A stretch of 64,000 nt of DNA, from positions 11,470,001 through 11,534,000 of the forward strand of contig OZ020254.1 in assembly GCA_963971285.1 (NCBI GenBank). The letters run 5' to 3'. Under the pieces are notes generated by a model, which did not search any database, was not told the origin of the DNA, and was given only the letters and a program-made list of their open reading frames with translations. The DNA comes from Astropecten irregularis (lineage: Eukaryota; Echinodermata; Asteroidea; Paxillosida; Astropectinidae). Below, one piece after another: positions 4,323-56,916 of this stretch. The first letter of the stretch is position 1; every line of letters begins with the position of its first letter. The translations under genes were made by a program, and so were the position numbers.

Positions 4323-4397
4323 ATGGATCAAGTTGGAGATATTCTTAAAGAAGGCTACCTCGGAGTCCAACGTGAGAAAGGCTCTCTTTTGAAATCT
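4323..4397 (+). CDS. PLEKHS1: PLEKHS1-like exon 1 (start)
   Basis: The ATG opens [20 protein letters not shown], the first strand of the PH domain. The exon ends at TCT before GTAAGT (phase 0), an excellent donor. The start is chosen because it is the first ATG of the frame that continues into the PH domain. Confidence 0.8.
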
Positions 4398-7300: not shown

Positions 7301-7886
7301 AGCCTCCCAGGCGCGGTTCTACGGGGGGGCTAGGGGGGCCCCAAATTTTTTTTGTCTAGCCCCCCAAAAAATGCAAGTGAAAAAAGAAATTCTTGAAAAT
7401 ACTGGATTTGTTCAGTTATTAAGCGGCAGTTACATAAAAACGCGTTGTGTGGGCTATAATGTGCATGTTTTTCGACCCCTAATAAGACATAGCAGAAGCG
7501 AGTGTTAGAAGAACCCAAAATATTGGGTCTTCTAGCCCCCCAAAAAAATAATGGCTCTTCTAGCCCCCCACAAATTTTGCCTCTAGAACCGCGCCTGCAG
7601 CCTCCCTTGGGCAATACAGTAACTGTATACAGTAATGTTTTTAATCAGAGTTATTCGTTCCCGTTCTTTATTTCCGTGTACCCAGGGTGATATGGGTGGA
7701 CCCGAAGCACATTCGCGGTTCCTTGAGGGTCGGGGACCAGATCATAAAGGTCAACAGCCAAATCCTACCATCGGCTAGTTTCGCCCTAGAAACCATTCGA
7801 AGCACAGATAGCGACGAGGTAAACTAAGAGTGTTTACTAAACGGAGGCCCAAGCTCTGACTCTGGCTCTGGCTCAGGCTGAGGCTG

Positions 7887-7922
<36 letters not shown>

Positions 7923-9540: not shown

Positions 9541-9643
9541 AATATTACCTGCCCTTATTTTACTATTCATAGTCTTCGTATACAATCTTCCTTGAGACGT
9601 CGAATCCATGGGCCAATTTCATAAAACTGCTAAAACCCAAAAT

Positions 9644-9975
9644 CTACTTAAAATGTATAATACATGATTGAGAAAAGACCTCACACTTTGTCTGATCCAT
9701 GCTTGTACATGAAATAATAAACCTGTGGAAATTGTAGCTCAATTGGACATTTGAGTCATGAAAAAAACCTGCGAAAACCCGACTCAATTCTCTTTATAAA
9801 ACATAAAGATTGGTTTTGATCTTACCCCGAGATCAAAACTGTTTTCTGTCTTTGTTTGACTAATTTATAGGTAAATATACCATTTCAGCCGGAAATATGT
9901 TAACGATATGTTTCCATCAGCACCATCTTCATATTTCTATTTGTGTATGTTACCAATACTGTACTGTACCTTTAA
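9644..9975. repeat. MITE family B copy downstream of the PLEKHS1-like gene
   Basis: Similar to the elements at 2340-2880 and 58977-59353, with the GATCTTACCCCGAGATC centre. It begins about 100 bp after the stop codon and may be part of the 3' UTR. Confidence 0.65.
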
Positions 9976-10029
9976 GCATGAAAAGTCTTCCTTGATCAAA
10001 CATAATTGTCAACCAAATGTTCATGTGAT

Positions 10030-10180
10030 GTTAGGAATCTGCTTTTGATTTGTATTCGGCCATTGATTGCTGAGCATAACATTCACAAGGAGTTTTGACT
10101 GGCATACTGATTTTATTTACCAAGGTTTTTGGTGCTTAAGCAAATTTTGGTGCTTAAGCAGCTCTATGAAATTAGCCCCT
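10030..10180. repeat. fragment of the CCAATTTCATAGAGCTGC family
   Basis: Ends in GCTTAAGCAGCTCTATGAAA followed by TTAGCCCC. The same end and interior (ATTTGTATTCGGCCATTG-like) recur at about 38095-38355, 39476-39742, 44618-44840 and 57662-57910. Confidence 0.65.
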
Positions 10181-10485
10181 GGGCACGTAATTGAACAATT
10201 TGCTATAACAATCCTCTTTTTGACATGTTTTCATCCCACAATAAAAATCATGTATTTCGACATTTCATCCTGCAATTCTTTTCAGATAGTTGGGTTCTTG
10301 TCTCTTATTCCACCCTTGTAAAACTTAATGAAATGAAATTATGTGTGGCACCTTGACTTGATGCCACTGCGCGTGCGCATTCAATAATTTAAGCTCGACT
10401 TTCAGAAAAAAAAATGTATACATGTATAACGCTTTCGGTATATGAGTGCTGGATTTTGATGCATTTTATAAAGAAACGTGAGTTA

Positions 10486-10938: not shown

Positions 10939-11223
10939 CTGTATAGGATTGTGTATTGTTGTATCCAGATTATGACTTTGAAAAAATACATTTATGCTTC
11001 TTTAGTGACATCATCAATTTGTGTGAGTGAAATATATTCAGTTATGATTCAATCAAGGGTGCCAACTTCAAGCGCTGAAAAAATATAAACTTCCATTTTT
11101 CATTATTTTAGACATTATTATAACGGCGTGACGTGACAAATTTATGCGACAAGTTTGCGCTAATGAATACTACTATGCTGGGAAATTTGTTTTCATTATC
11201 AACTCGGTTTATACATTGTATTT

Positions 11224-16557: not shown

Positions 16558-17769
16558 TCACGTCCGGCGGCTCTTCCTGCATCGCAAAAGTTTTTTGAAC
16601 GCATGACGAAACTCCCGGTTGAAGACGGTGTAGATGACGGGGTTGACCGAGGAGTTACACCAGCCTACCCAGGTAAAGACGCGGTGCATGGTCGGCAGGG
16701 TCAGGCAGAGGGGTCGCTTGAGATTGACCGAGCACAACGTGTTGAAGATGGTGTGGCTGGTGAAGAACGGGAGCCAGCAGACTATGAAGGCGCCCACCAC
16801 GATACCGATGGTCCGGGCAGCCTTGCGCTCGCGCGCCAGCGAGATCCGCGTCTGAACTTCGGCCCTGGTGGACACCATTGCCGTCACCGGCTCAACGTCG
16901 TGTAGTTGAACCGCGATCGGCGGTGGTTGCGGAGTCGGCCGCGCCGGTGACGGCCTTCCTGTCGACCGTCCACCCTCCAAGGTGTCCGCGTCCGGCGTGC
17001 GGCATACCGGACTCGATCGAATCCCGTCCTGACCCTGCGGGGAAGGAAACTGCGAGGCTTCCTGGTACGAGCGGGCAATGGTGCTATTAGCCACGGTCCA
17101 CACGGAGGCAAGGTTCAAGACTCGCCTGGCCCTTCTCTTGGCGGCGTTATAGATCTTGAAGTAAACCAGAAGTATGACCGCGCAGGGGATGTAGAAAGAG
17201 ATGAGGGAGGAGCACCAGGCGTAGGCATAGGTGACATCGTTGCTGATGCACCGTTCGTCTCTGACCTCGATCAGGAAGAAGGCAGGGGCTGCCACGAGGG
17301 CCGAGAGTCCCCATACCACGGCGATGCGCCCGACAGCCATGCGGGGCGTCCTCCGCGTCATGTAGTGGATGGGCGACGTGATAGCGCTGAACCGGTCCAC
17401 GGAGATGGCGCACAGGTGAAGAATGGACGCGGTGGATAGCATGATATCCAGGGCGCTCCAGGTCTTGCACAGAGCATCCTGGAGGAACCACATCCCTCCA
17501 GTGTACTCCATGTACAGGGCAAAGGGCATGATGATCGCGCACACCAAGACATCGGCAACTGCCAACGAGATGATGTAGGAGTTGGCCACCGTCCGCAGGC
17601 CTCTGAACTGCGTCACCGCCAAGCAGACTAAGATGTTCCCCAGAATCCCGATCAAAATGACAAAGATTAGCACGGCTATCCCGATCGCAGATGGTGGTGG
17701 TTGTATCGGATCGGGCTGGATGGCCTGTGAGCTCTGGTTCTCGTTTTCCATCAGGTCCTGTTCGTCCAT
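16558..17769 (-). CDS. aminergic G protein-coupled receptor, dopamine D2/alpha2-adrenergic-like
   Basis: A single uninterrupted frame of 403 residues encodes a class A receptor with seven hydrophobic segments. Key residues: N45 (1.50), D73 (2.50), C101 and C174 (disulphide), W104, D108 (3.32, amine anchor), DRF at 125-127 in place of DRY, S187, S188 and S191 (5.42, 5.43, 5.46, catechol contacts), CWLPFF at 331-336 with H339 (6.55), and NPVIY at 376-380. N11 is a possible glycosylation site. Loop 3 (about 211-313) is long, Pro/Ser-rich and basic at both ends, typical of Gi-coupled D2 and alpha2 receptors. The tail is short with C397 as a possible palmitoylation site. Position 370 (7.43) is Trp instead of the usual Tyr. 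The start is the first ATG before TM1. It is probably activated by a catecholamine or related monoamine at the plasma membrane; the exact ligand cannot be read from sequence. It faces FANK1 divergently. Confidence 0.93.
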   Translation of the reverse strand: MDEQDLMENENQSSQAIQPDPIQPPPSAIGIAVLIFVILIGILGNILVCLAVTQFRGLRTVANSYIISLAVADVLVCAIIMPFALYMEYTGGMWFLQDALCKTWSALDIMLSTASILHLCAISVDRFSAITSPIHYMTRRTPRMAVGRIAVVWGLSALVAAPAFFLIEVRDERCISNDVTYAYAWCSSLISFYIPCAVILLVYFKIYNAAKRRARRVLNLASVWTVANSTIARSYQEASQFPSPQGQDGIRSSPVCRTPDADTLEGGRSTGRPSPARPTPQPPPIAVQLHDVEPVTAMVSTRAEVQTRISLARERKAARTIGIVVGAFIVCWLPFFTSHTIFNTLCSVNLKRPLCLTLPTMHRVFTWVGWCNSSVNPVIYTVFNREFRHAFKKLLRCRKSRRT

Positions 17770-19137
17770 GATGATGACTATCCAAGTACAATCAGCGCAA
17801 AATCGTCCTTAATGCCCACGGCTTATGAATCCCTGCAGAGGGATACTTCAGTCTGTACTTAACAGCAGAGTCAGCTAATAAGAGTCAAGCTCCGTGCGGA
17901 TCATCAGCCCCGCCTGCCCTAAATCCTAACTCACTGCGAGACGTTGTGCCGATCCGTGCGCATTAGCTTAGTCTTCAACTGGCATTACCCAATACCCCTA
18001 TAGCTCGCTCGTAGACTGACATCATCTGTCATCTCAAGATAGCTGGCAAGGGACAATCTCCGATCACCGGCTCTGCATCACCGTCTACTAGTATTCCACC
18101 GCCGTACGTCCCACAAAACTGCCCTATTAAACTGAAATCGTCGTGCCTGTCGCGAAAGACCTGTTTACCGTTCGAAACTAGATGTGCGGACCACTTACAT
18201 GATACTTTATCTTCTTGCATCGCCCTCACGTCGCTTGAAAGGGATAATCAATTTAATTTCATGGCAAATTGCTCCGACCCGTTTTATTGTTAATTATTCA
18301 AGTGTCCATTTCGCCCAAACTGTCTTGAACGTGCCTGTTATGCCTTTATACAGCCGCTGCAGACAATACAATCGTCTTCCACCCAGTGTTAATAATTGAA
18401 CGACTTCCAAGCGGAAAATTAACTCGGAATACCGGTGTTACTATAATTTACGTCGCCGTGAGATGCGAAAAAACGACGGCGTGGGCTTGGAGTGGAATCT
18501 GGGCAGTCGGTTCGGCACGGGAACACTGTTGTCAGAAGTAATTTTCGGTCATTCAAACTCTGCTTCTCAAATATTATTGCTCCCATTAGATAAGATTTAT
18601 TGCTTGACCATTTATGTCATGTGTATGACGCATAATGAGTCGTGCTTGTTCCATTACCGTATTGATTTGCACCGCTGGCTCCTTTGATTTGAACAAAAAG
18701 AGCAGCCGTCACTCTTTATCATCCTGCACAGTTTTACCTCATTCCTAATTGGTACCGGAACTACGGTATTATTTGAGCGAGTTGTTCCAATTGCGTGGAT
18801 CCGGAAGTATGTTTACTTGCAAGTCATGTCCTCAATAAAGTCGATCTCTCTCTTTCTCTCAGATACAAAAAGTATTGTGGTCCGTAAGTTGGATGAATCT
18901 ACTTGTAAGTCGCACACTGGAGTCTATCCCTTTCGGTGGTTCTCTACCACGGAGTTCATCATATCTTGGATCCGGAAGTCTGGCATTACTTACAAGTGCC
19001 CAACAGGTGACCACTGATGCTACTCCGTCAGCAGTTCTCGAACCAATTGCATGCTTCGCAGAAAACTCCTGGACAAACTTTTAATTTGGAACTAAGTGGA
19101 GTTCAAAATGGTGCGAACAGCACATCATGTTGGCATG
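17770..19137. other. upstream region of the receptor gene, no gene recognised
   Basis: Contains the presumed 5' UTR and promoter of the minus-strand receptor. No TATA box stands out in the first 150 bp. A short motif is repeated with changes at about 18799-18812 and 18968-18981 (GGATCCGGAAGT). No repeat family or coding exon could be supported. Confidence 0.4.
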
Positions 19138-24700: not shown

Positions 24701-26037
24701 TAACAGTGAATTCAGATGAATGTTGAAATCTTTGGCAATTTTGAGGGGAAAATATCACAATGCAGGCAGTGTTATTGCTAGCCCACTTTGAGTGCCGGAT
24801 TATTATGAAGCTCTCGCCCCTCACGGCCGGGGTTCAGAAGATATGTAATACACAGGCATGCAACTTTTCCTCGGATCAGCTGATTTCCTCTTTATTCATT
24901 TTACGCTTAATGCTATTAAAATGTTGAAAACACTTAACAAAGTTTGGTAAAGATTGGAATTTCCTCTTTTTTTGTTAAGTCCAAGTTGCATGCCTGAATA
25001 CACCATGTACATGGTAGCTATTATGCAAGCATTTCAGCAATATTCTGTTTTGTTATTGGGGATCTGGTTAATCTAAACAGTCAAAATCTTACTTTTCAGT
25101 GGAAAAACACAACAATGAAACATCAATTTGTGGTTTTCAAGATTCTTTGTTCCGGTCGGTTGGTGTGTGCCGGCGTGAGATTTTTCATTTCAGTGCCGGC
25201 CGGAAAGGCTGAGTGCTGGATGCCAACCAGCGTGGCTAGAACACTGAACATGCTGAATGCAAGTTATTAACTGTTTGTGTTAATGGTACAAATAATACAA
25301 TTCAGACTAAATGTACACGTACATGTATATTTTGTTTGTTAACGGTGAAAGACTGGTCTTCCTTTCCCACAGCCCCAAAGAAGCCAGACCCACCGGTAGT
25401 CGGCAAAGTCACCCATCACACCATTGAGCTTCTATGGCACGAGGCAGGAAAAAGTGATAAAGTAGATAAAGGAGACGGCAGGCTACGCTATGCGATTCAA
25501 GAGGCTGATAAAATCCAAGGATGGGGGAACGTTTACACGTATGTACAGTACTGCTGTTTGTCAACTTTTTTTCAAACAAGTTTATATCAATAGTTCATAT
25601 TCCATTTCAATGCAAACAGTTTCGTTCTCTTGTACATGTACATGTTGTAATTGGTGAAAGTCTGTATTCAGCTTTGATATCCAGTTTTGGGCACATTGTG
25701 ATGAAAATATCGTGACATTCGATATTATCATGGTGACGTAATTTTTTTTCTTATTTGTTTTATTGTAAGCATGCATGGAGAGCAATTGTACATTGTACAG
25801 TGTTCAGGTGTTGTATACACTTTTCTCAAATTGCATCACAGGCAGACAGGTGAAACATCAAGTTACAGGGGTACATACAAATCTAGAAAAGTCTCAGGTT
25901 AGGTGTTCGGGTTCAAGCCGAACACCTATTGTAATTGTTCGAGTTTTTAGGTGTTCGGGTTCAAACCGAACACCTATTGTTATTGTTCGAGTTTTTTAGG
26001 TGTTCGGGTTCAAACCGAACACCTATTGTTATTGTTC

Positions 26038-26071
<34 letters not shown>

Positions 26072-29000
26072 CATTTTTCTTCTTCCCAAACTTGTCAGCA
26101 CGACTTCTATATGACAGTTACAAGATATTGACTTGAAACTTGGTTATAAACGGAAGGATTTGGGCACATAAAATGTATTTAGCTAAAAGATAGAGCAGGT
26201 CTTGCGCTTTCATAAAATATAAACGATGACGTCATACGGGCTGTATAGCGCCCTCTATGGTGGATTAAAGATATACAGTGATTACGTAATCCAAAAGTAA
26301 ACAACGGATATACGCCAAATTTGGTGAGTGTAAAGAACTAATGCACCTTGACATATGTGTGAAGTTTGAAATCTGTGACGTCATTCAACCGGAAGTTATG
26401 CATTTTTAAAGGAAACATGATGTAATTATTCAAATACTGTTTATTCGGTAATTGCATGACGCACATCGGTGCAAATAGCAAATTTTTTACATGGTACGCA
26501 TTTGATGATTTCTGCAAATTTATTTTCAGTTGTTTGTTGTTAACTATAAACCGGAAGTTATTGTCCGGGCAATTTTACGTTATTTAAAGGTGACACCATT
26601 CCCTATACGCTATCAGTCGGTTTACATATAATACGAATACACTGAACTCAGCATGATCAGTATTTGCTCAGTCACACAGTTGAAGTGTATTTATATATGC
26701 CACACATGCGTTCCAACAGACATTCTCATAACAGTTCCAGTACGAAATGAGACCCCGAACACCTAGTGGTTGTTCCCACAACCACAATGTCTAGTTTTTA
26801 GGTGTTCGGGTTCAAACCGAACACCTATTGTTATTGTTCGAGTTTTTAGGTGTTCGGGTTCAAGCCGAACACCTATTGTTATTGTTCGAGTTTTTTTTTT
26901 TTTTTTTCTTTTTTTTATTTTTCTTCTTCCCAAACTTGTCAGCAGGACTTCTATATGACAGTTACAAGATATCGACATGAAACTTGGTGGGAACTTCGGT
27001 CATGATGTAAAGTTGTATTTAGAAGATTGACGTCATGATGACGTCATCGGGTATCAAATTACAAGCGTTTTTATGAAAAACTTTGGTGCTTTATAACTTG
27101 AGAACCACATGACCTACGATTTTGATATTGACATATGTTACTCAACACGTGAATCTCAACAATTAACATATTTAGTGTTGTGTACAAATGACCTTCACTT
27201 CCGGTGTTACCGGAAGTTGAAGTTTGACTCAAAATAACTCGAAAACGGAAGGATTTGGGCACATAAAACCTCTCTGGGTAAAAGATAGAGTAGGTCTTAA
27301 GCTTTCAGAAAATATAAACCATGACGTCATACACGCTGTATAGCGCCCTCTACGGTGGACTAAAGATATACAGTGATTACGTAATCCAAAAGTAAACAAC
27401 GGATTTCCGCCAAATTTGGTGAGTGTGAAGCACTAATGCACTTCGACCTATGTGTGAAGTTTGAAATTTGTGACGTCATTCAACCGGAAGTTATGCGGTT
27501 TTAAAGGAAACATGATGTTATTATTCAAATACTGTTTATTCAGTAATTACATGACGTACATCAGTGCAAATTGCAAATTGTTTACATCGTACGCATTCGA
27601 TGATTTCTGCAAATTTTCAGTTGTTTGTGATGAACTAACCGGAAGTTATCGTCCGGGCAATTTTACATTATTTAAAGGTGACACCATTTTCTATACGCTA
27701 TCAGTCAGTGTACATAATACGAATACACTGTGCAATCAGCATGATCAGTATTTGCTCCGTCACACAGTTTAAGTGTATTTCAACGCCCCACATGCGTTCC
27801 AACAGATATTCTCATAATAGTTCCAGTACGAATTGAGACCCCGAACACCTAGTGGTTGTTCCCACAACCACAATGTCTAGTTTTTTTTTTTTTTTTTTTT
27901 TTTTTTCATTTTTCTTCTTCCCAAACTTGTCAGCACGACTTCTATATGACAGTTACAAGATATTGACTTGAAACTTGGTGGGAACTTCGGTCATGATGCC
28001 AAGTTGTATTTAGAAGATTGACGTCATGATGACGTCATCGGGTATCAAATTACGCGCGTTTTTAGGAAAAACTTTGGTGCTCTATAACTTGAGAACCACA
28101 TGACCTACGATTTTGATATTGACATATGTTACTCAACACGTGCATCTCAACAATTAATGTATTCAGTGTTGTGTACAAATGACCTTCACTTCCGGTGTTA
28201 CCGGAAGTTGAAGTTTGACTCAAAATAACTCGAAAACGGAAGGATTTGGGCACATAAAACCTCTCTGGGTAAATGATAGAGTAGGTCTTAAGCTTTTAGA
28301 AAATATAAACGATGACGTCATACGGGCTGTATAGCGCCCTCTATGGTGGATTAAAGATATACAGTGATTACGTTATCCAAAAGTAAACAACGGATTTACG
28401 CCAAATTTGGTGAGTGTGAAGCACTAATGCACCTTGACATATGTGTGAAGTTTGAAATCTGTGACGTCATTCAACCGGAAGTTATGCATTTTTAAAGGAA
28501 ACATGATGTAATTATTCAAATACTGTTTATTGGGTAATTACATGACGTACATCGGTGCAAATTGCATATTGTTTACATGGTACGCATTTGATGATTTCTG
28601 CAAATATATTTTCAGTTGTTTGTGGTTAAATATAAACCGGAAGTTATCGTCCGGACAATTTTACGTTATTTAAAGGTGACACCATTCTCTATACGCTATC
28701 AGTCAGTTTACATATAATACGAATACACTGCACTCAGCATGATCAGTATTTGCTCAGTCACACAGTTTAAGTGTATTTATATATGCCACACATGCGTTCC
28801 AACAGACATTCTCATAACAACAGTTCCAGTACGAAATGAGACCCCGAACACCTAGTGGTTGTTCCCACAACCACAATGTCTAGTTTTTTTTTTTTTTCCA
28901 TTTTTTTTCTTCCCAAACTTGTCAGCAGGACTTCTATATGACAGTTTCAAGATATCGACTTGAAACTTGGTGGGAACTTCGGTCATGATGCCAAGTTGTA

Positions 29001-35000: not shown

Positions 35001-38000
35001 TGTGTTCCAGCTGGTTCGAATCCTGCTCCAGTGAATTTTTACAAGTAGGCCTAATAAACTGAGCAGGTACAGTACATGTACATTGTATTGCAAACGTTTT
35101 ATCAGCCCAAATAATGACCTGAAATTGATTAAATGTTGGAGTATATACATGTACATGGAGGGCCTGATGCGTTCCAATCCTAGCAGGATCGAAACGAAAA
35201 AGATCCTGCTACAGCTACATGTAATGTAGGATCAAAATGTGCCAGGCCTTAATTCCTACATGTGTATGCTGTATGTCATGTTCATGTATGTGTAACTCAA
35301 ACCATGGAGTATTGGGTAAACCTATCAGTTTTCCTGCGTTCACTTTCAATGACTTGACATTAACTAGTCAGCTTCCCTTGTGGTTATTTGACGACTTACA
35401 GAGAAATTAAAAACAAATACTCAGGTCTCAGTATCACCATGAATGAGGGTCTCTCCCTTCCTTCATGTTATCACAAACCATACATGTAGACAGACTTAGC
35501 CTATTTAGCCCTGTCTGCACTGGACTTTTTTTCGGGGATTTCACTGAGCTGATGGGTAGGCCTATGTAAATGGAAAATGAGCAAATATTAGCGGTGTCCG
35601 CACTTGGACTTTCCACTCGGGTAGCTTATATGGTGTACATGTACATGCAACTGTGCACACACGGAGGAATTACCGAACTGTCAATACCATGAATACTAGG
35701 CTCATGAGGGTACCCGACTCGCACTGTCCGCACTGGACTTTTCGTCTCAGGAAGAGTGTCTCATGAATTCTTCCTGAGCAGAAGTTGGCTGGTAGAATTG
35801 CCTGAATGGGTCGGGAAAAGTAACTGAGACTGAGAGGAAAACTTCCCGGGACGTCCGTACTGGACTTATAATGGGTAAAGTTACCAGCGTCTCAGTTAAT
35901 ACTTTTCCCAAAATAAGTCCAGCGCGGACAGGGCTTAAGGACAAACCTGGCTATTTTCAATTTTAGGTACATGGGGTCTTGGTTAAATTGGAATAACCAC
36001 ATGCATGGACCATGTGGACCGTTAGCATACAGACATGACAGAAGAGGGCTTACCTGCCTTATTTAGGGATAAGCCAGTGTACTGCTAAATAGATCCATAA
36101 ATCAGGATTAAGAAAGGATAATCTGAGGGGAATTAAAGGATTCTAAGAAGGGGAAGAAAGAGGTGGAGCTTTATGTATACCCCAGTACACGTTAATACCC
36201 TCCCCCTTCCCTAAAAACACCCAACAGTCTGTGTACTGTGGTCAATAATTATGGTGGTTGGCAGTGCTGCCTGCTGTGCAGTTATCTGTAGAGGAACCAC
36301 CAAATCAGAGGACATCTTGTGCATCTTGAGCAAATTCATCTCTTGCGAGTGCAGACTGGCGCTAAAGATTTTGTAAATTAGGAAATGATCTGGACAGAAC
36401 TTGGAAACTTATTTTGTACAAAACATAATTTAAGAAATCCAAAAGCAAGGACCTCATTGGTGCACTCAATTTTCTTACACACACTTTTAGGAGGGTACAC
36501 TGTAGCTGTTTTGTACCTAATTGGGAGTCAGGTTGGTGTCTACGGTTCTTTCCTCGCCTTTCACCTCTAGAGGCCTGGGTTTGAGTACGGCTCGGTCCAC
36601 AAGTGGATTGGGTTTTCAGTCCCTACTTGATTCTGTGGGTTTTACCCAGAATATTACTCTGGGGTTTTCCTCCCACCGCTACAACTGTACCTTCTTCTCA
36701 TCATCTTTCCATGAAAGGTTTCATCAGGCTTTTGAGCTACAGTGCCTATAGGGCGCTTTTGAGGAATCCTAGGTTTTATAACCAGAAATAGATAATAAAT
36801 AAGTAAATAAATACTGAACATCATAAATAAGATTTGAAGCTATACACGGTGGAAGTACGAAACGAACAGAGCACACTGTTTGGATTGTCGAGATAATACC
36901 ACCGGTTCTTCTCAGAACCACAGACTCTCACAGAAGAGATTACATGGTGTCACCGCAAACCTACCTTACTTTTACCATGGAGAAATTTCTCCATGCTTTT
37001 ACATACATGTGTAGGCCCTACATCATGCAGTAAAGCCTTATACAATAATGTACACAGGGCTCAAAATACCCGCTAGACCGTGGACTGAGTCTAGTGATTT
37101 CAGTGTCGATCTAGTAAAGTGTGTACTGCACTAGTCCGGCTGTCTAGTGATTTCAGTGTCGATCTAGTAATGTGTGTACTGCACTAGTCCGGCTGTCTAG
37201 TGATTTTGTTTTCCTTGCACAATTGAAATGGTGCCTAAATTGATGATTTTTGACACAATATTCCATACAATTAGGTGTTTCCTACTGTATGTGTGTGAAT
37301 GCCACAGGTCTAGTGAAAACAAGTTCAGGTCTAGTAAAATGCTTCAATTACTAGACCTGCTGTCCTGGTACATGTACAAACTGGACTTTTTGGGGTAAAC
37401 CTCACCGGGACCTGGAGACTATGTTTGATCTTATCCCCATTTTAAGTCCAGTCTGAATGCCGAGGAAACTTTCCTCTCAGTCATGTCAGTTACAGTTTTT
37501 CACTGTTTTCTAAAAAAATTGGGTGCTGTATGGGACTGGGAATTTCACAGATTTGACAGATGACTGACATTGTATCTTTCTTGATATCTTTGACAAAGAC
37601 CAAAGTATAATATTACCTTTAATTGATTGAGTCTCTCAACTCATGGTTGGCAGACCACTTGAGAGCTACAGTGTATGTTGTCAATGTATAGGCCTACATC
37701 CTGACCAATGCCTGCAGCACCTGCTTCACAAAAATGGTCGTCAAAATCGGTTAAATAGGATAATTTGCAAAGTGTGAAGGAAGTCTACGCAGCTGGCGGA
37801 ATTTCCTCTTAGTGAATTGCGCATTTTCCTGAATTTGTTTGGCATTTTACAAAAGGTGATTTATTTGTTTGTTTGTTTTCGAGATTGGCAGTGTATCGCT
37901 GTAGATTTAGACTTGTGTGCTCTTAAAGACCTTTTCTTACCAAAATTTATTTGAGTCATTTTTTTGTCTCACATGTGTCAGGTGCTTACCTGTAATACTT

Positions 38001-41000
38001 GGAGGGGGGGGGCAATTTCAATGGGGCATGTGCCCCGGCACCACTTTTTAGGGTGCACAAAAAATGCAAACATTTGGCAAAGAAAAAGAAGAAAGTTAGC
38101 TGGGGCCAATTTCACGGCCCTGCTCAGCACAAACATTTGCTAACCATGAAATTTCTATCTTCATAAAAACATGATTATAAAACACCTACATTTCCATGTC
38201 TTGTCTGCTTGTGTATCACTTTCGATTGTTCTTTGGCTGTTGTTTTCTGACCATGAATATCAAATAGAATTTTTAATGGTGGTTTGTTAAATTGAGCAAG
38301 ACATTTTGTGCTTAGCAATTTTTTTGTGCTTAACATCTCCATGAAATTGGCCCCTGTACTGTTGAAGGTATCATGGTTATTGGAATCTAATCTAATGAAT
38401 AAACATTTAGACAGATTGCAATTTCAAATTATCTGAATTTTTTTCCATTGCCATCTGAAAATGGAATTAGGGGACCGTGCAGTTTTAGCGCTGTTTCACA
38501 TGTACCTTGATACGCCTCTGCCTATATGCGTCTTCATCAATATTTTTTCTTTCCCTTGAATTTGTTCCTTTTTAAAAATCTTTTCTTTTCCGTTTTTTTT
38601 TTTTTTGTTCAGTGGCTACGCAACCAGCAATGTTTTCCCGGGCTTAGAGTCCAACACGTTATACAAGTACAGGCTGCGTGTCTTCAACAGCCATGGCAGC
38701 AGTGAATACAGCCGACTCGTTACCGTTTCCACAACAAGTATGTACATGACGTTTCTGTCAAACTCTGCTTCATTCTATTTTATTGATTAATGTCTGCAGG
38801 TTTAAATAAAAAACAAGTCCATATAATGCAAATAACAAAATACAATGTATAGTTCTACACTGATGAGAAATAAAGCAAATTATTTAAATATTTTGATAAA
38901 AATAGAAATTATGACTTCATTCTGATTATACATAGATTATGTCAGTGCTGTGTCCGGTCAGTCCGAGTCCGAGACCGAGTCTGAGTCTGGCACATGTACA
39001 AAAAATGTACAAAATCAATCAAAATCACATAGGCCTGTATCAATTTGCCTTTGTTTTCAACACCAAGTTGAAATACCGGCCTCGGTACAAATTTGCTTTA
39101 AGAAATCTGTTTTTGACATTGCAAAAAGCTCACTGACTTTGCAGTAAGAAATAAAGATGGCATATATATACACTCAAAACTGGTGAAATTTGCCGGTCTT
39201 GAGCCGGACTCGACCCGAGTCATCGAGTCACAGAGCCCGAGTCCGAGACCAAGTCCGAGTCATGAAACTCCGAGTCCGAGTCCAAGTCCGAGTCCGAGAC
39301 CAAGTCCAGCAAAAGCGGTCTCAAGACCGGTCCTGAGTCCAAGATTGGACTCGAGTCTCACAGCACTGAATTAAGTGGTTGTAAATACAGTACATGTATT
39401 TAATATTCAAACACACACACATGTTTTGCATACTGTCCAAGGACAAGGCATCGTCTTTTCAAGGCATCGTACCTGGGGCCAATTTCATAGACATGATAGA
39501 GCTGCTTAAATTCCAAATCTGCTTTTAGCATGAAACGTCTTCCTTGATCAAACAGGATTACCATCCAAATTTGTATTTACTGCATTTGACTTGTATTCAA
39601 CCATTGTTTTTCATTTCATTTCATTGTTGGCTGAGTATAACATTCTCAAGGAGTTTTAGTGGCTGGCATACTGATTTGATTTTATAGGTTTTTGGTGTTT
39701 AAGCAAACTTTGGTTCTTAAGCATCTCTATGAAATTGCCCCCAGTACTTTAATACACTCCTTGGACTAAGCACATGTGCAATGGGAGACTTTGGAGAATC
39801 GGTCTTCAAGTCAACAGCGCACGCGCACGCAATTGTGAGCATGCGCGCACTGTTTTGTGCGTGAAGACCGATTCTCCAAAGTCTCCCATTATTGTAAGTC
39901 CATGAACAACAGCAACAACTTTGAACAAAAGAGGTCTGTTAAAGTCAGAGTTTTTATGACCAAGTCAAATTTTCACAAGTCAAGTCAAGTCGCAATTAAT
40001 AAGTCAAATTTTCTCAAGTCAAGTCTCGAGTCATTTTGGTCCCGCAAGTCAAGTCAAGTCACAAGTCACTGTGTCTGCGTCAAGTCAGCAAGTCAAGTCA
40101 CAAGTCACAAAGATTGGTGACTCGAGTCGGACTTGAGTCCAAGTCACTGACTCGAGTCAACAACTCTGGTTAATAATATACTCGTCATACTGGACTCCCA
40201 CAATGTACACAAAAGCGAAACAAATGGGAGACTTTTAAGAACCGGTCTTCAAGTCAACATCGCACGTGCAAGCAATTGTGAGCATGCGCGCTCTTTTTTG
40301 CGCGTGCGCTGTTGTATGGTTGTGCGTGCGCGTGCGCTGTTGACTTGAAGACCGGTTCTCAAAAGTCTCCCATTGCTGATACCTGAAAGACAGGACACTA
40401 AAATAACACAACAAACAACATAACAAACAACAAGAACAGTTTCAAACTTTCGGTCCTAAAAAAGAAGACTTGGCATAAATTTGGTTTTTGGATTTCTCTT
40501 CTCCTCAGAGGAGCCACTGAATGGAGACCAGCTGCACAAAGCTGTCTCACTGACGCAGGATGTAGATCGAGTGGCAGAGATCCTGGAGACCGGGGATGTC
40601 TGGGTGGACGTACCGGACACGTATGGCTTCACTCCTCTCATGGCTGCCTCGCAGAAGGGCAACATCGAGTAAGCTCCCTCACTTGTTTCCCTTTGATCAC
40701 CCTAAAAAATAATGTCTGTGGAACATTTCGCACACACTGTGTGATCTGGGATTGCTTGAAACTTCTCCATATCCTCAGGGCTGGAAATAAGGTTTGGTGA
40801 GGGCAAGGCCAAATGGCCTTGGTAATTTTCAAATTTTGGGGGCACCAAGGCCATTGGGAAGGGCACGAAGGCCAAACACTTTTTAGCTGTAGGGCACCAA
40901 GGCAAAAATTAAAAACTGAAGTTTTATAGAGTGACCGTTAACCAATACAGCCTTCTTTTGAACCTCACTCAAATATACTTGATACCGTAATCTAATTGTA

Positions 41001-44000
41001 ATGCAAACATTTCTTTCCATTAAATGTTGTAAAAAAAAATGTATGTCAAAATTATAGACTTTCTGAGTCATATCGGTGTTTTGTTTTGTTTTGTTTTGTT
41101 TGAAAACCGGCCGTCGGGAATTGCGGTGAGCCAGGCTCCCGATGTCCCAATGAAATCATACATGTGCATACACATGTGCATTTATATGTACATGTACATG
41201 TACACATGTACAAAACCGCAGTAGTACGACTTTTTATATTTCTTTCTCGTTGACAATTAAAAGAAATTAACATAAAAAAAACCCAGAGCTGTTTTGGAAG
41301 ACCGAAACAGCTATAGTTGAACGGAGAAAATAACATTCGATCGTATACATAGGCCTACTTTGCGGGGACGCATAAAGTACGTCGAAACCCGTGCAGCAAT
41401 CATGTTGAGAGCTGAGCCATATCTGAATTCCGCCTCCAGGTTGTCATACATAGCACTTAATTAAAGGATCGCTGGAGCCGAAACCAGACTACGCGCTCAG
41501 TACAGTGCACGTGGTCGGACTGTCATTGAACGAAAGCATGGTGTAATCATGGTGTAATGCACGTAAAGATTCTCTACGTTCAGAAAGCCACGGCCACACG
41601 TGCAAACTTGAGTTTCGGAAGGGGATTTGCCTTCCATCATTATAACGGCATCATATGCACGACATTATTGAACATAAATAGTGTTTTTGGGAAGGTTATC
41701 TTAGTTTGTCTATTCATTTTTCTCGCCATCCAGCCTGGAATCCGAAGAGGATTTTACTCGCCCGTCCCACCGTACGCGTCATGTTCTAGTCTCACCGTAA
41801 TACTTCTCACTCGCATTTGGTGACCGTGCGTCAGCTAATTTCAAATTCAAACCAGAAATAAATAGGGCTAACTTTCTGCTCATCCTATCGCTAATATACT
41901 CACTGCTTGAAAATGTTGCCAAATTTCTTGTTTCGGCTGCTGCAGCCTGAATTTCTGCAATTTTCCGTCGTTTTACACGATCTTTTTGAGGCTGGAAGTA
42001 CCGCACGTATGTACTTAAACTTCATGTACATGTACATGTACAATTATTGTACACTACACACAGTGTTACACGTACATGTACATGTAAACTGTACCGTCTT
42101 CGCTTACGTTACGTACCCGTTGTACGTTCGTTATAGTACCCGCGGACCATGCTGGGCCGGGCGGCGCACCGCGGCTCCCGGCCCGGTGTTCGGACATCGT
42201 CTACTCGATCGGACACGGACACGGCCGTTTGTCGTTATGCTGCGACGGAGTGGTGAATTTCATTTAAAGAAAAAGGGCACGACGGACAAAGTAAAAGGGC
42301 ACTACGGCCTTTGTGGCCTTCGATGATAGTTATTTTTGGAGGGCACCACGGCCATCAACGAAAATACGACGGCCATGGCTGCCGTGGCCGTCGATTATTT
42401 CCAGCCCTGTATCCTGTTTCATCTTAAGGGATTTTCACAATATCCAAAATCATGGGATTGAAACCGAATCGAACCCAGAGATTTGTTTCAACCCTTTTCA
42501 CACTTAGACAGTTTCAACCTTGAGCAAACCCGCATCGGATGGCAAAACCAGATCGAAATCAACCCTGGTCCCTACCAAATCTCAACTCGGTTCCAAACTG
42601 CATTTTCACCAAACGTTCACCAAAAAACGTAGTGTGAACTCTACGTAGTTGCATCTCTATGATCCGGTTCAAAAACTTGCGTGGCGGATACGGGTTGGTT
42701 TAATCATGGATCAAAAAGGCGATAGTGTGAAAAGGCCTACAGAGTACAAACCAAGTAGTGAAAATCAATCCCCTCCCCCACCTGCCACCTCACTCACAAA
42801 CCCACCCCCACCCCCAGGGTGGAACTCATCCTACAGCCCAGGTATAGTTTGACAGTTTGAATTTGCAAAATTTGCAGCAAACCGTCAACTACGCCGCTTT
42901 GAATGCGGTTTGGTTTACATGATATACAATTTGTCATTTATTAGGAGTATTTAAGCATGATAAGCTGTCTTTCCAAGAACATATTCCTTTTTTGCTATTT
43001 TGGAGACTCCTTGTTTTTGTATGCAGTTTGAATAAACCTAGAAGATTAAATGTATCGCATGTTATATATAATGACGTGACTGTAGTATGGACACCCAGTG
43101 CCTATTGTGTTTCAGTGCAATGCGTATTATAATCATGGACCCAATAGGGCTGTGGTTTTGGCGGGGTTTTTTTCTTCTCCAACATATCTTGATTGAAACC
43201 TTGCTCCGTTAATTGCAGCGAGTTAAATTCCCTCACACTTAATTAAAATTGAATTTGCCAAGCAGCACTGGCCGGGGCAGTTTCACATTACTAGACCACT
43301 AGTTTGTAACTATCACCGTTGACATGTTTGACTGCACATCGCTCTTGTCAAATCAGGTTAAATGCTTGACCTGTAAAAAGAAAACTGAGCGGAAACAACT
43401 TTAGCAGATTAATTTGTGTTTCACCACTGGCTAAAAGAAATAAAAAGGTCTCCAAAATTATAATTTGTCGGGGAAATGGCGGAAGGTTCGTCATCGTAGC
43501 AGTTCAAGTTGAAAGTTATGACTGGTTCAACGTTTGGATACAAAATGGTCGCTCATTAATGCATTTATCCATGTGAGCTTGCAGTGTTTTCGGAAATGTG
43601 TCCACTTTAGGCATGTTGAACAGTTCAATCATAGAGCTACATGTACATGTACAGTATGAACAGAGAACGGGCTTCAGTTGGCCCCAACCATTTCTCCATC
43701 TTTTGGGAGATTATAATGCCCAACACCAGGGGTCGATTTCACAAGGCCGATCGATCGTAACTTTTCGTAAGTTTTCAATGGATAACCCATTCTCCGTAGG
43801 CCAGTGCAAGCAATGCATCATAAGTCCTACGATTTATAGTAAGTTTGATGAGTTTGGAGAAATTTCATAATCTGCAGACAAAAAAATATTGCACCCTAGC
43901 TGGTACATGTACATGTACTATTACATGTAGATATTATAATGTACATGTACATTGTTCTTCACACCTTATACAACCCAACACAAATGCTGTACAGTCATGA

Positions 44001-47000
44001 CAGTATGCTGTCAGATGTTATAAGATAAGATAAGATTTTTTTAACCATTATGTCTGTATTTGTATAATACAAATACAGTATCTATCAGTCTCTGTACATT
44101 GTACTCAAACTGTGGCTCACATACACCCATACATGTATGTATACACGTGTACTGTACAGTGTACAGTATGTACCATTTGTACAATGGCATACATTGATCT
44201 AGCTGGAACCATGCAGTTATATTTAGCAGTCAACCTCCCCCCCCCAAAAAAAAAAAAATCACCTACATGTACCCCTATGCCCCTCCCCCATACTTGGCCC
44301 ACCCCCTTTCCACTGCCACCAAGAACTACTATTGTACTACTGTAATTTCATACCTTCCAAAGAAAAACTGAAATTCTGTGCTTGGCACAATTGGCAGATA
44401 AAGGCTTGGGTTTTCTCTGCTGATGAAGGGCATTGCAATAGCGCTCCGCACTTGCGCTAAAAATAGCACCGGATCTCAGACAAACATTTGCAATCATGCA
44501 AACGTGCGTGCGTGTGCATGTACACTACGTGTGTGAGACAATGTTTGTCTGACATCCGGGAATTTTAGGACGTCATTAGTGCGGAGCACTACTAAAAATG
44601 GAACCGTGTACGTTACCAGGGGCCAATTTCATAGAGCTGCTGAAGCAAAACAAGTCTTCCTTGATCAAACAGAATTACCATCCAAATTTTCATGTGATGT
44701 TTACTGTTTTTGACTTGTATTCAGCCATTGTTTGCCGAGCATAACATTCAGTTTTGGCATTTTGAGTTTTGGCTGGCATACTGATTTTATTTACTAAAGT
44801 TTTTGGTGCTTAAGCAGTTAAGCAGCTCTATGAAATTGATCCATGAGAGCATTTCAGCAGACAACAACGCAATGACAAAGAGGTCTTTCAGACCATCTTT
44901 TTTAAGTGCTGTTACAGCAAATCTGGGGGAGGGGGGAGATGAGAGGGGGTCATTTTAAATTTTAAAATCATTTGAAAATAACAGATTTTGCTTGAGGACA
45001 GTTTTGTTTTCTTCATGAATGATTTAACCAGCAGAACAACACAAACAATAGACATTGCATTCAATGTTTTCATACAGGGCCATATCTCAAACATGTACAA
45101 TGGGTATGTAAAAGACTTACATAATTTCAGATACCAGTAATAAAACAGTGTACAATGTAGTACTCATGTATACACCTGTACATATGTACATGTTTGCCTG
45201 ACTGAACTCCGCTGAGCAGCATCAGTCCACAATCCACATCACCTGACATTTAACAAACATAGGACGTCCACTTGTCGGCCTTGCCCCAATCCCGCCCACT
45301 CCCCCTCAGCCCTGTCCAACCCTCTCACCTGATAAGTATTTGCTTTTACCGTGGACAGTTTTATATAGTGCTTGTTTAGAGAGCATGCAAATATTACTAG
45401 AGCTCTGCAAGTGAAGAATTCCTTCAGTGTTAAGGCATGGAGCTATTGAAACACTTCCATGGTTAAAGGTAGTTTTCATACTTTGGTAGCACACCGAAAC
45501 AGAAATCTACACAGATTTACCTATAACTTACAGAGTGTACAGATGGTGATGGTAGAAACATACATGTACAGTTAAAATATTTCTGCCTGCACTGCTGTAT
45601 TTATCCAGGAAAGAGTCGAACCAGTGACCAACATTATGGTTGATCTTTTAAAGATCAAAAATAAAAGAGAAAAGACTTTATAAGAAATACCATACATGTA
45701 CATGTAGCTGTTTTCTTAAAAAGGTTGGCTTGATTCATATGGGACATACTGTAAGTACTGAACTGTATCTTCCTTGATATTTTTGCAAATTTTCCTTTGA
45801 CAAAAACCAAAGCATGATATTACCTTTAACATGAGCCACCGTGGCTTACACTAGCCAGTTTGCCAGCAGAGATGATCGGTTCCAACATGTCCAAGGGTTG
45901 GGACTTTGGCATGTTTGGTAATAGAATAATAGCCATCGTTAACTTACAAATAAGGGGGAAAAACTCTTACACAAGCTTATCTGAAATTCATATGATGCTT
46001 GGAGTTAGGACATGTAGGAAGGCCTGATGTTAATGTGGATTATCGGAGTTTATGGAAGGATCCAATCCAAAAAATTCAAGGGAACAAATTTTCTCAAATT
46101 TTGTTGTATTTTTGCATAATTATTACCCTCTGGTATATTTTTGTTTTCAACGAATTAAAAATTTAAGAGACCAATTACCAAAGTGAAATTTGTATTTTTT
46201 AGTGTATTTTTTCTATGTGAAATTTTGGATTTCTGTTTGCATTTATCATGTGTAATCGAAAAACCATGTATAAAAAATAACCAGGCATGGATTTGGATTT
46301 GGATACTACACTTTACTTTCCGAAAATCAGTCATTCATATTCCTTTCATATTACTTTTTGACAGGTATCTTTTGGATTGTTAGGCTTGAAAATTAAATGT
46401 TACGATAAATGGTCATTTCCACAGTTTTGGGACATTTTGTAACTTAACATGCTTAGGCATGTTAGGGGCCGTCCGTACGCACGGAGGGGGGAGGGGAGCG
46501 GTTGATACCGATGCGTACGCCATCCGTACGCCATCCGTACTCCATGCGTACAGGGGGGAGGAAAAATTTGCATAATCATTTCGCGCGAAAAGAGAGGGAA
46601 ACAAACGAGAAAAAACACCAGGATTTATTTGTTTTTTCCTTTTTTTCTTATTCAATATGATAAAAAATTGTAAAATACATCTGTAAATGTATAAAAAACC
46701 TGTTACACTTTAGTCATTCATTTCAAAATTTGAAAGTGACGTCCCAATAACGGTACCGGCCCGGATTATTGTGACATATTAATGATGCTAAAGCAAGGGA
46801 CCATGAGAAGTGAAAAACCTAATGTGAAATGCGTATGCGTACAGGGGGGGGGGGGGGGGGGTGGGACCATTGCGTACGCCTTGCGTACAGGGGGGGAGGG
46901 GGGGATAAAAAAAGTTGGCATTTCGTGCGTACGTACTTTATGGACCGCCCCTTATACCATTTTTTGGCATGCATTTCAAGGAACCATTATGTGGTATACT

Positions 47001-50000
47001 TGCTGATTCCAATAAGACATTTTTAAATCTCTGTCTTTCAAGAATGATCAATCAAGGAATACAGGTCAAAGTCACTTAATAGGTAACTTTAATACGTTAC
47101 CATGGAATTGCTCTAAATATGTAGATCCTATGAAGAATCTTTATCAGAACCTCCCCCACCCAATGGTCTGTTTATGAAACTCTTCCAGTTTCAGTAAACG
47201 TTTTTCCGTCCACCTTTGAATGATTCCACACAGGATGATTGAGACGCTACTGAGATACGGATCAGACGTGAACGCGGTCAACGGCAGCGGCAAGAACAGT
47301 CTCATGCTGGCCTGCTTCGCCGGTCACCTCCCTGTGGTCAAGCTGCTGCGGTCCTACAAGGCCACCTATGACAGCAGGGACAAGGGCGGGTCCACGGCGC
47401 TGCACTGGGCGGTGGATGGTGGCAACGTGGCACTGATCCAGACCATGATAGCTGATGGAGCTTCGGTATGTCAATTTTCCATCTGAAGGAAAAATCCTAA
47501 GATGAATTAAATTAGCCCCTTGTTATTACACGACCAGCGATTGTACGTACATACATGTATACACACAGGGAGTCAAACAGAAGTTTACTGGGATTGGGGA
47601 TTTTTTTCAAAGAAATGACACTTAAAAGTTCAGTAAAGCATTTATTTAACAAGCACTCTCTCCTGCTTATTACAAAGGAAGAATGAAACAAATTGATCAT
47701 TCCTAAGCAAATGCTAAGAGGACTTGTGTCTATTTTCATAAAGATGTACTCATTTTGCAAGCTGTCCATCACTCCATGGAATGTTAATGATTGACTGATT
47801 CGAAACATCTGAGTATTGAGTAAGTAGCAAACAGTATTAAGAGTCATTTTAGCTACGCACAGCTAAAATGTTGACTTTACATTTGTTACATGTATGTCAA
47901 GTATTCCATGGACAGCTTGCTAAAATGAGTACCTTTATTATTTGACATAACTCCTCAGGAATGATCAAATTTTTTTTTTTTTCTAATACACAGGAGAATG
48001 CTTGTTAAATGTATGCTTTACTGAACTTTTGAGTGCCATGTTTTGAAAAACATCACCAAACTCGGTCAACTTCTTTTTGACTCGCCCTGTACATGCTGTA
48101 TGTATGTAAATAGGATCTTGGATTGAGTGACTGAAGATACCAGTTAGCATACTTGTGAGGCTTGCCATGAGGGAGAGTGTGAGGCCCATATTCATGGTTT
48201 CTATTTGACTATAGACTTCTTTCATTGCAAATAAACACCCCAAGTATGAACATTGAATATGTTGAATGTGCGTTGCGTGTGTGTAAACGCAGAGAGTATG
48301 AACATGTGATATACTGTAGCAACAGTGTCTATAGTCTGGAAAATTCAGGTATTGATGTTTACATGTACATACAGTGAAATAATTCAGTGTACCTGGTATT
48401 GAAAGGTACAGTACAGGATTGGTAACAAACCAAAACAGAGATGTTCACAGATTTACCTATAACTTACATGGTATAACGATGGACATGATAGAAACCCTAC
48501 TGCTAAAATATTTTTGCCTGAAATGCTACATTTGGTAATAGAAAAGTGTAAAACAAATTATTTACGCATGTGGATCGGTTTGCGGAAACACCATTACCGG
48601 TATATAAGAATCGGTCATACTTTCGCACTTCTTTTTTGTTCACACTTCTTGTAAGGTCTCAACGTTTCAACTAGCCTGCTCTAGTCCTCATCAGGAGACC
48701 GATGAGGACTAGAGCAGGCTAGTCGAAACGTTGAGACCTTACGAGAAGGGCAAAAGTACGAACGATTCTTACATTGTGATTCCGCAAACCAATCCACACG
48801 TACTGTCACTATGCAAAGCCTCAAATCTTTCTTAAATAATTTACGTCTCGGTGAGATCAAAAACATTCTTTATGTTTTTATAAGAAAAGCGGAGTTGGTA
48901 GTTTTGGCTATTTTTGCTGTTCTGTGATCTTTACCAATCATGTATTATACATTTAGTCTTGAAAGTAGGCCTGGGCGATTAACTTGATTAATCGATTAAT
49001 CGCGATTACATTCCTGTGTCGATTACTCGATTAGTAAATTCTGAACTACTTGATTAATCGTGCCAGCACGATTAGTGCCTTCGAGTTGCGATTAATTCCA
49101 TGAGTTACTACTTTTCTCAGTCGATCAATAGCCACGCCGTGTGTGTTGCATGGAGCAGCGCAGCAAGCTCGCTGGCAAGCTTGCGGGCTGAAGCTTGCGG
49201 GCAAGCTCGCGGGCAAGCTCAAAATCATGTGGGCAGCAAGCTTGCGAGCTGAAGCTTGCTGGCAAGCTTGCACTCACTCATTTGCATATTTGGAACCTTG
49301 TCGCAAGCTTTCCTGCAAGCTCGTGGGCAAGCTTAAAATCAAGCCGGCAGCAAGCTTGCAGGCTGAAGCTTGCTGCAAGCTTGCAGGAAAGCTTGCATGC
49401 AAGCTTGCACTCATTTGCATATTTGGAACCTTGCGGCAAGCTTGCGGGCTAGCTTGCAGACCAGCTTGCCGCAAGCTTGCACAGATTTTTGTGAGGGGCT
49501 GCATAGACTTGATGACAAGTCGTTAGACATTCGTGTTTTGTCCGTCCGTCCGTCAAAATTAGGTACAAATTACAATCATTGTGCATCATGCATCGTTCGT
49601 ATAGTGAGGCAACGCAATCTTGATTCAATAGGGGTCGAGGGTGTATATATATGTACCACGGTCGCGTCCCTGCATGTTGGACATTATGCAGGACGTACAC
49701 AGTGTAATATGAACGCTCACACCGTACCCCTGGTGTAGCGGTAAAATTACCGACTTGATATCAAGTCTGCCTGCTGCACGTGCACCGGAAGCCCGCCCAA
49801 TTTTGACAGCACCATGACAACATTTATAACACTGCAATTGGCCAGTAGCCCTTCTAATAATACTGCCTTATATGGTCAAAGTGGATGAGGCATGAATGAG
49901 GGCTATACCATTTCGCTGTTTATTGAGGTACATTTAGTTTTGTTACATTTTCAATGAATACTATTTGTTTCACTTAGTAATCAAACGAAAGGTTGTCGCA

Positions 50001-53000
50001 CATAAACATGAGTTATTGGATACATACAGTTTAAAAGTGTCGGGGTAAATTTTTATTCAATCCTGACAGCTGACAATGAAGTTTTTCTCAATTTCCTAGG
50101 CCCACGTGTTCACAATGGATTCGGCTACCATGGCCGGCCAGCGAGGCTTGGCACATGGCGTGATTGCACTCAACAACTCGAGTACGGGCGCTACTCGATT
50201 AGACATACTGTATTGTATCGTATCAAATGATAATCGTGAAGTGAACATGTGGAGTAATCGTGAATTGTAAAATAATCGCGATGTGTTTAGTAATCGTGAA
50301 CTGTATAATAATCGTGTTCACTGTTCAGTAATCGTGAACTGTATAATAATCGTGTTCACTGTTCAGCCTACATGGGGTGTACATTGTGTCATCGTGTACT
50401 ATCGTTGACCTGTATATGCATGTATGGGACCACGTCTGTGTGTACCTACGTGAGGCAGTAACTGCATGCCTTGTCGGCCAACACTCCTTGAAATTGCATT
50501 ATACCTTGTCAGAACAAAAAAAGCAGTGCTCAATGCCTCGGAAATCGGAACTGATCGCTGTTGAAACTTGTAAGAATCAATGCATTACGCTAGTGCAGTT
50601 TACTGCAGTGCCGCTATGATGAAAACAAGGTACGTGCTGCTTGTATAGTCACTTCCGGGTAATCGCGATTAATCGATTAATCGCGATTATTTCCTCCGCG
50701 ATTAATCGATTAGTGAAAAGCACTAATCGCCCAGGCCTACTTGAAAGGCTAGTTCTCATTCTGCATTGTTTGTTCCACCCATGCAGGTACATGAGAAAGA
50801 CCACGGATCAGGCTGGACCCCATTGCTACGCTGTGCTGCTATGGCCGGTGACTCCAAGGTAGCCAGGGTGCTCGTTAATGCCGGGGCAGAGGTCAACATC
50901 AAAGACAATGACGGGAAGACGGCCCTCATGGTATTAACCTTTGACCTCTTTCATTTTCCTGTAGATGCATATCTTCTGATTTTGTTTACTACAGGTATAA
51001 ATAAACTCCTGCAAACTGCTCATCAGCCAAAACATGCAAAATGACCTGAAATATATATCAAATGCTTGGACTTAGGAGGGCCTGACACATTTCGATCCTA
51101 GCAAGATCTTTCTCAAAGGCCTTCGAGAAAGATCCTGATAGGATCAGGCCCTCCTACTAAGCTCCAAAATTTTGTTTATTGTCGAATGTTGGGCCTGAGA
51201 TGAGACAACCTTTGCCATTTTTCAATTTTGCATACCTCATAATTTTTGCATATTTATATTAAACTTTCTGTCTTGTTCTAGTTCAACTATCAACCAGTTT
51301 GAACCAGCAACATATTTTGAATAATTTGTATATTAAGATATCCCTAAGTCATGATGAGTGGGAAAAAAAATGCAGTGGTTGCACATTCCTCATATTTTAT
51401 TAAGGCACATAAAAACCACTTGAAAAAATATACACCTTAAACAACATATAGCACCTTGAAAAATTTGAATCACCGTAAAAAATGCCATGAAAGCGATACA
51501 AAAAGTCTCTAGAGTGTAATTATATAGTTGTGTAGCCTTTGAGAAAAAAATCTGCCAACACGAAAATGTCAGGCTTTCCAAAATAATTTTAAATTCCGAG
51601 ACTGAAATTCACTGCAAGGGACACCAAGGGCCTGTTTGTTTCAGGCACGTGATCAGTGATCCTGCTGCTCCAGATCTGGCCATTTTAGCGTATCCTGCAT
51701 GATCACTGATCATCGCGTGCCTGAAACAAACAGGCCCTAAGACAGGCCTTGAATTTAGTTCTGAAAAGGGCAAGGCCACTTTTCCGTTACAAGGGCCACT
51801 CTCATTTGAAAATCATAATGTCTATGGAAATGTTTGAAGGGGGCACGAAGGCCAAGAACCAGGGCAACGAAGGCTGTGGCCTCCGTTAAATTCAAAGCTT
51901 GCTAAGACTGTGGTTTTGTTTTGTGATGCAGATCGCAAGTCTGAACGGACACGTGTCTCTGGTCCAGCTTCTGGTCGAGAAAGGTGCTGACCCGACCGTA
52001 CGGACTGAGTTTGGAATGTCTGCAGTGGAAATGGCGCAGTCATTTGACCGAAAGGTAAGTTATGAAGACCTCCCCCCTCCCCCACATGTGTATAGATAAA
52101 GAGGGCGTATATATAATGATATAGGCCATATAATTCTAATAGTGTTTTCATGTCATACTGCTTGGCAAGCGAGCTAGCTGGGATCAGCAGAGTGAATCGA
52201 ATCCCTTATCGGTGGGCACCGCAGTTAATCAGTTATTATTAATTTATTTGTTGAGGAGATTAAGCAAACAATTTATAGCCCTTCCACAGGTGGTCGTGGG
52301 TTCGAATCCCACCTGAGCCAGCGCACAATTTTTTCATGTGTGCTTAAAATGCACTTGGTGAAGTGCTTATCTACCTTGTTGAAGGGCAATAAATCTCCTC
52401 AACAAGTAAATTAATAATAACTGATTAATTACGGCGCCCGCCGATAAGGGATTCGATTCACTCTGCTGACCCCAGCAAGCTCGGTGGCCTATAGCGGTAT
52501 GGCATCTGCACTAGTAAGCAGGAGGTCGTGAGTTTGAATCCCACCTGAGCCAGCACATGATTTTTTCTAAGTACTTTAAGTAGTGAAGTGCTTATCTAAA
52601 TTATCAAAATTATCTAAGTGCTAAATTGTTTGCGTAAGTGTTTTTCGTTTGTTGAGAAGTGAATATAGACAGAATCAAACAACCATCATAGAGTTCTAAC
52701 AAACTTTGCCGTGCATATATTGGAATGATATATTTAGTGACAAATGATCAAGGGATTTCTATTTGGGCTTGGTATAATCAGGGATTAAGGTTGGGCAGCG
52801 TTCCAAGGATTATAATCTATAATCTGGATCCCTTATCTTAAGATTATCCCAAAGTTAAACGTCACTGACAATCAAAAGAAAATTATGAAATGCTGGATTG
52901 TTGGGCTTGTGCTAAAGCATCCTTTTTGATGTCACTGCATCTTCTTTTTTTTCTGTTTTGTGATTCACAAATGCTCATTGATTGGCATCTATGCTAATAA

Positions 53001-56916: not shown

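Follow-up and report, generated by a model that had tools for sequence, protein, structure and literature searches.

Gene content of the window

The window, the whole 64,000-nucleotide stretch of Astropecten irregularis DNA that was analysed, corresponds to C18:11470001-11534000 in an assembly of 475.7 Mb and 168 contigs. C18 is 20.4 Mb long and represents 4.3% of the assembly, and the analysis covers this one genome. A PH and PDZ-like gene, a D2-like receptor and FANK1 lie together within 53 kb of the window (Table 1).

Table 1 Features of the window and loci of related families on C18. Positions without a contig name are counted from the first nucleotide of the window.
Feature	Position	Strand	Description
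PH + tandem PDZ-like gene	4323..9540	+	spliced, with scored splice joins; 7 exons
Exons of the PH + PDZ-like gene	4323-4397, 5065-5536, 6162-6552, 7101-7217, 7686-7818, 8246-8344, 9268-9540	+	
D2-like dopamine-type receptor	16558..17808	-	one open frame, 416 aa, stop to stop
FANK1	25363..52054	+	six exons, consistent splice joins; first and last exon ends unsettled
FANK1 FN3 exons	25363-25538, 38613-38737	+	
FANK1 ankyrin exons	40509-40668, 47234-47465, 50787-50930, 51932-52054	+	
Open frame with inferred first NCAPH coding exon	62931..63251	+	Cnd2 E 0.0025, below cut-off
EBF	C18:0.61-0.71 Mb		5 of 5 matches on C18
BCCIP	C18:6.60 Mb		2 of 2 matches on C18
TACC	C18:19.27 Mb		3 of 3 matches on C18
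DCLRE1A-like (DRMBL)	C18:20.33 Mb		DCLRE1A/SNM1A by comparison with a provisional human stretch
Noto, Tlx, NK7, NK6	C18:1.47-1.63 Mb		provisional names
NK1, Hmx, Hhex	C18:6.26-6.38 Mb		provisional names
Emx, Vax	C18:10.71-10.86 Mb		provisional names
NK3, NK4, Lbx, Msx	C18:13.37-13.69 Mb		provisional names

FANK1 was confirmed at the sequence level, as the earlier note had proposed. The six exons are co-linear with human FANK1, with 54% identity over 317 aa (E 1e-124) to a provisional human reference sequence, and they encode FN3 followed by ankyrin repeats. Pfam was applied to three of the four ankyrin exons; two were above the cut-off, and 40460-40669 was below. No exon was established beyond 52054, short of the end at 56916 in the earlier note; a weak candidate lies near 56850. 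Copies of one 48-base tandem unit occur at two places (25899-26045 and 26793-26895) within the large intron of FANK1.

NCAPH (condensin complex subunit 2) probably begins at 62931 and continues beyond the window, judging from the open frame there and from a genome search for Cnd2, in which all six matches fell at C18:11535390-11554185 (+), just past the window end at 11534000.

Pfam scans with X at stops covered the intergenic parts outside 25.4-56.9 kb. No further gene domain was detected at 1-4322 on both strands, apart from a weak Dapper match, at 9541-16557 on the minus strand, at 17809-25364 on both strands, or at 56917-64000 on the plus strand. The last of these scans missed the NCAPH exon, which shows that short exons can escape this approach. 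A 398-base TTG-type triplet array (33 copies of a 12-mer) was observed at 3190-3587, about 0.7 kb before the PH and PDZ-like gene.

The PH and PDZ-like gene

The gene described in the earlier note as PLEKHS1-like is a real gene; its product of 519 aa consists of a PH domain, a long middle and two PDZ-like stretches. The PLEKHS1 name was not established. The PH domain is in exon 5065-5536 and the PDZ-like stretches are in exons 7686-9540, on weak domain matches: Pfam gave PH_10 at 1.6e-5, PF00169 at 2e-4 and PDZ at 0.005, all below the curated cut-offs. When the protein was searched against its own genome, all seven matches were its own exons, hence the gene is found once.

Human PLEKHS1, as a provisional reference sequence, gave 21.9 bits (E 0.04) in BLASTP. 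In a shuffle test against the same reference, the PH domain scored z 3.3 (p 0.009), the first PDZ z 5.6 (p 0.001) and the second PDZ z 1.4 (p 0.10); these signals may reflect generic resemblance among PH or PDZ domains. Human PLEKHS1 presumably has a PH domain at its N terminus and a PDZ-like stretch at its C terminus, with a long linker between them. Going by the weak domain matches, the gene in the window may have a similar layout, but nothing in the human reference corresponds to its second PDZ-like stretch. The predicted structure of the second PDZ-like exon (pLDDT 48.7) was useless as a model. The best solved-structure match was the tandem PDZ of Mint1/X11 (E 0.008); it runs from the first PDZ across the linker into the beginning of the second PDZ. 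Since PTB and PH domains have a common fold and the PDZ-like part matches Mint1/X11, it is possible that the gene is distantly related to the Mint proteins.

The receptor in the window is D2-like

The receptor matched Pfam 7tm_1 at 7e-63, which places it in class A. Among solved structures, D3, D2 and D4 were the best matches, followed by alpha2A and 5-HT1. The alignment contains LDIMLSTAS, with the TM3 aspartate, and CSSLISF, with the TM5 serines, which we take together to be the catecholamine motif.

In the second tree, whose reference letters were copied from solved structures, the window receptor was paired with the receptor at C18:11.37 Mb at 100/96. The pair fell in the D2 group (95/92) with D2, D3, D4 and the receptor at C18:15.49 Mb. 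The 15.49 Mb receptor is nearer to D2, D3 and D4, and the window pair stands outside the group formed by these four. When the pair was moved to alpha2, p-AU was 0.077 in the second set and 0.22 in the first, so that on these alignments an alpha2 placement would be disfavoured but not formally rejected. The paired receptor, at C18:11369616-11370569, precedes the window receptor by about 117 kb on the opposite strand and is 36% identical to it; the two are probably an old pair and not a recent tandem copy.

By its sequence, the window receptor is confirmed as a D2-like dopamine-type receptor. The catecholamine-type receptor of the earlier note was thus borne out, and the receptor tree by which that note had left the choice between alpha2/beta and D2 to be made came down on the side of D2. 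A role as the counterpart of ADRB1 or ADRA2A was rejected because the alpha2-like gene is another one, at C18:2.56 Mb (99/98 in the second tree), 9 Mb from the window.

Monoamine receptors are concentrated on C18

The first look at 7tm_1 gave 1168 candidates in the genome, of which 147 were scored and 69 read (the window, 8 loci and 60 fetched). Reading depth was uneven: all 17 matches on C18 were read, down to 146 bits, and the other contigs only to 160 bits. Three matches above 160 bits at C16:9.14-9.21 Mb, beside locus L046, were left out. The first tree contained 22 genome rows picked by eye from the alignment; for the second tree four rows were dropped, including the clade member at C10:20.71 Mb.

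The monoamine clade of the first tree (97/97) held 14 genome receptors: 11 are on C18, while C10, C11 and C22 have one apiece. The binomial P is 3e-13; in these statistics the gene share is approximated by the base share and the genes are treated as independent. When neighbours within 0.5 Mb were merged, 7 of 10 groups were still on C18 (P 3e-8). The receptor at C18:15.49 Mb was included because C18 had been read to 146 bits; without it, under a uniform score cut-off, the count is 10 of 13 (P 5e-12). In contrast, only 6 of the other 133 scored 7tm_1 matches are on C18, or 4.5%, about its base share. In the second tree, with its other set of rows, support for the clade drops to 92/92. Amine-like receptors at C10:8.79 and C1:30.12 Mb and the muscarinic-like receptors are outside the clade and off C18.

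Besides the D2-like and alpha2-like receptors, the second tree placed a C18 receptor as 5-HT1-like (95/90) and the one at C18:12.26 Mb with D5 (93/90). Those at C18:19.90 and 20.01 Mb form a group without a vertebrate reference, the best solved-structure match of the former being alpha1A. The receptors at 12.10, 12.31 and 0.43 Mb were unplaced in both trees.

Homeobox genes and families with human 10q members on C18

Homeobox matches in the genome numbered 100, with 14 on C18. Fifty were fetched and 48 gave a readable homeodomain, including all 14 of C18. Thirteen of the C18 homeoboxes were given provisional names by their homeodomain sequence; one, at 6.225 Mb, was left unnamed. The named genes form four groups spread over 12 Mb of C18 (Table 1). 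For nine of these families, PMC2211742 lists a human member at 10q23-26. Compared with the NK homeobox linkage, whose human places come from the same source, Tlx, Lbx, NK1, NK3, NK4, Hmx, NK6, Msx, Emx, Vax, Hhex and Noto, under their provisional names, are on one chromosome here.

Two other homeobox groups were seen elsewhere in the genome, again under provisional names. A run of Hox-type homeoboxes is located at C14:15.45-15.82 Mb (loci L070-L072, L074, L075, L078 and L084), and C14 seems to be the Hox chromosome, separate from C18. At C8:22.95-23.13 Mb (L086, L095 and L115), an Msx-like homeobox is found together with two of Nkx2 type, an arrangement that resembles nkx2.1/nkx2.2/msx in the pharyngeal cluster of PMC11175523.

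Five families with human 10q25-26 members (EBF, BCCIP, TACC, DRMBL and TCF) were fixed before searching. In human, EBF, TACC and BCCIP are at 10q25-26. Four of the five families have a C18 locus, with a P of 2e-5 that is somewhat too small because DRMBL has two loci, the second being on C1; without the C18 locus DRMBL would not have been scored as a success. Two of the 14 control genomes also gave a TACC_C match, below its cut-off. The matches of EBF and of BCCIP are each at one place, suggesting that this genome lacks the vertebrate duplications.

TCF was found on C28 and not on C18. The earlier note puts human FANK1 at 10q26 and ADRA2A at 10q25. For PLEKHS1 and ADRB1 its statement is matched by PMC4880969, in which PLEKHS1, DCLRE1A, NHLRC2 and ADRB1 are together on human chromosome 10 and TCF7L2 is within the same 2-Mb stretch as PLEKHS1. 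TCF/LEF is assigned to the chordate linkage group CLGQ in PMC9303524. The location of TCF on C28 agrees with this assignment and points to human 10q25 as a mixture; the human neighbourhood of PLEKHS1 probably mixes two ancestral groups. This suggests that the DCLRE1A-ADRB1 side of human 10q25, and not TCF7L2, belongs to the ancestral chromosome.

Discussion

The human 4/5/8/10 paralogon, partly continued on chromosome 2, includes two adrenergic receptor subfamilies and FGFR, according to PMC2453138. Families of this paralogon on C18 are the NKL homeobox genes, EBF, TACC, DCLRE1A-like, BCCIP and the alpha2-like receptor, with TCF absent. As in the human 4/5/8(2,7)/10 arrangement of that source, receptors of the adrenergic type are linked with NK-type homeobox genes and with the 10q/2q genes DCLRE1A-like and NCAPH. 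The sea star differs in having them on a single chromosome, and the vertebrate duplications are apparently absent. NCAPH fits a common chromosomal descent, given that human ADRA2B and NCAPH are both at 2q11 with seven genes between them in PMC4757728. Shared ancestry of C18 with the human 4/5/8(2)/10 paralogon is well supported.

FANK1, the receptor and NCAPH are identified genes located on C18. The window around them is probably an ordinary stretch of a chromosome that descended largely intact from the ancestral chromosome that became the 4/5/8(2)/10 paralogon. Under such a history, genes would have stayed on one chromosome because exchange between chromosomes was rare, and rearrangement within the chromosome would have scrambled their order. 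The monoamine receptors (alpha2-like, D1-like, D2-like, 5-HT1-like and others) and the NK-type homeobox genes would both have been on the ancestral chromosome, and FANK1, NCAPH and the PH and PDZ gene would be members of the same set.

A different explanation is a microsyntenic block, with the PH and PDZ gene, the receptor and FANK1 side by side since before the vertebrates, perhaps under shared regulation. The spacing of 53 kb here and the closeness of human PLEKHS1 to ADRB1 in PMC4880969 speak for it, but the receptor is neither ADRB1-like nor alpha2-like, the PLEKHS1 orthology of the PH and PDZ gene is unproven, and the partners BCCIP, DCLRE1A-like and alpha2-like are scattered over C18. 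We regard such a block as improbable. Nothing here marks the 53-kb packing as old, with related genes found across 20 Mb of C18; we infer that the association is ancestral and the packing incidental. The pre-vertebrate linkage block of the earlier note accordingly stands for the chromosome as a whole, with the NK set, EBF, BCCIP, TACC, DCLRE1A-like, NCAPH and the receptors on C18, and finds no support as a 53-kb unit.

The concentration of receptors on C18 could also be due to recent local duplication instead of old linkage. Neighbour groups exist at 11.37/11.49 (sisters at 100/98 in the first tree), 12.10/12.26/12.31 and 19.90/20.01 Mb, and the three unplaced receptors would agree with this origin. 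However, merging the neighbours left most groups on C18, and the C18 receptors join different vertebrate subtypes (D2-like, alpha2, 5-HT1-like and D5), so the duplications behind them predate the split from vertebrates. Recent duplication is quite improbable as the main cause.

A chance meeting of the three genes, on a C18 with no special relation to human chromosome 10, is disfavoured and highly improbable. Little can be concluded from a window of three genes alone when the identity of one is loose, and TCF is elsewhere, but nine NK-type families with a 10q member are on C18 together with EBF, BCCIP, TACC and the DCLRE1A-like gene, and four of the five families fixed in advance have a locus there.

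Descent from the ancestral paralogon chromosome is thus the preferred reading, and the adrenergic part of the link to this human chromosome group was already known from vertebrates (PMC2453138). The D2-like receptors found on the same chromosome go beyond the earlier picture. In human, DRD2 is on chromosome 11 and DRD3 on chromosome 3, and PMC4595791 saw no synteny between D1 and D2 in vertebrates. Narrow open-literature searches of titles and abstract starts returned nothing on monoamine receptors located together with the NK genes on one chromosome, and a similar search on FANK1 and synteny returned none on FANK1 linkage by title.

It can be proposed, tentatively and with the chances slightly against it, that D1-like, D2-like, alpha2-like and 5-HT1-like receptors arose and stayed on the ancestral NK homeobox chromosome and that the vertebrate DRD2, DRD3 and DRD4 left it later. 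If this is true, the lack of D1-D2 synteny reported for vertebrates in PMC4595791 would be a derived state. With most of the monoamine-clade receptors read, the D2-like ones included, sharing C18 with NK homeobox genes and other relatives of human 10q genes, the origin of the monoamine receptor family becomes testable by simple chromosome comparison.
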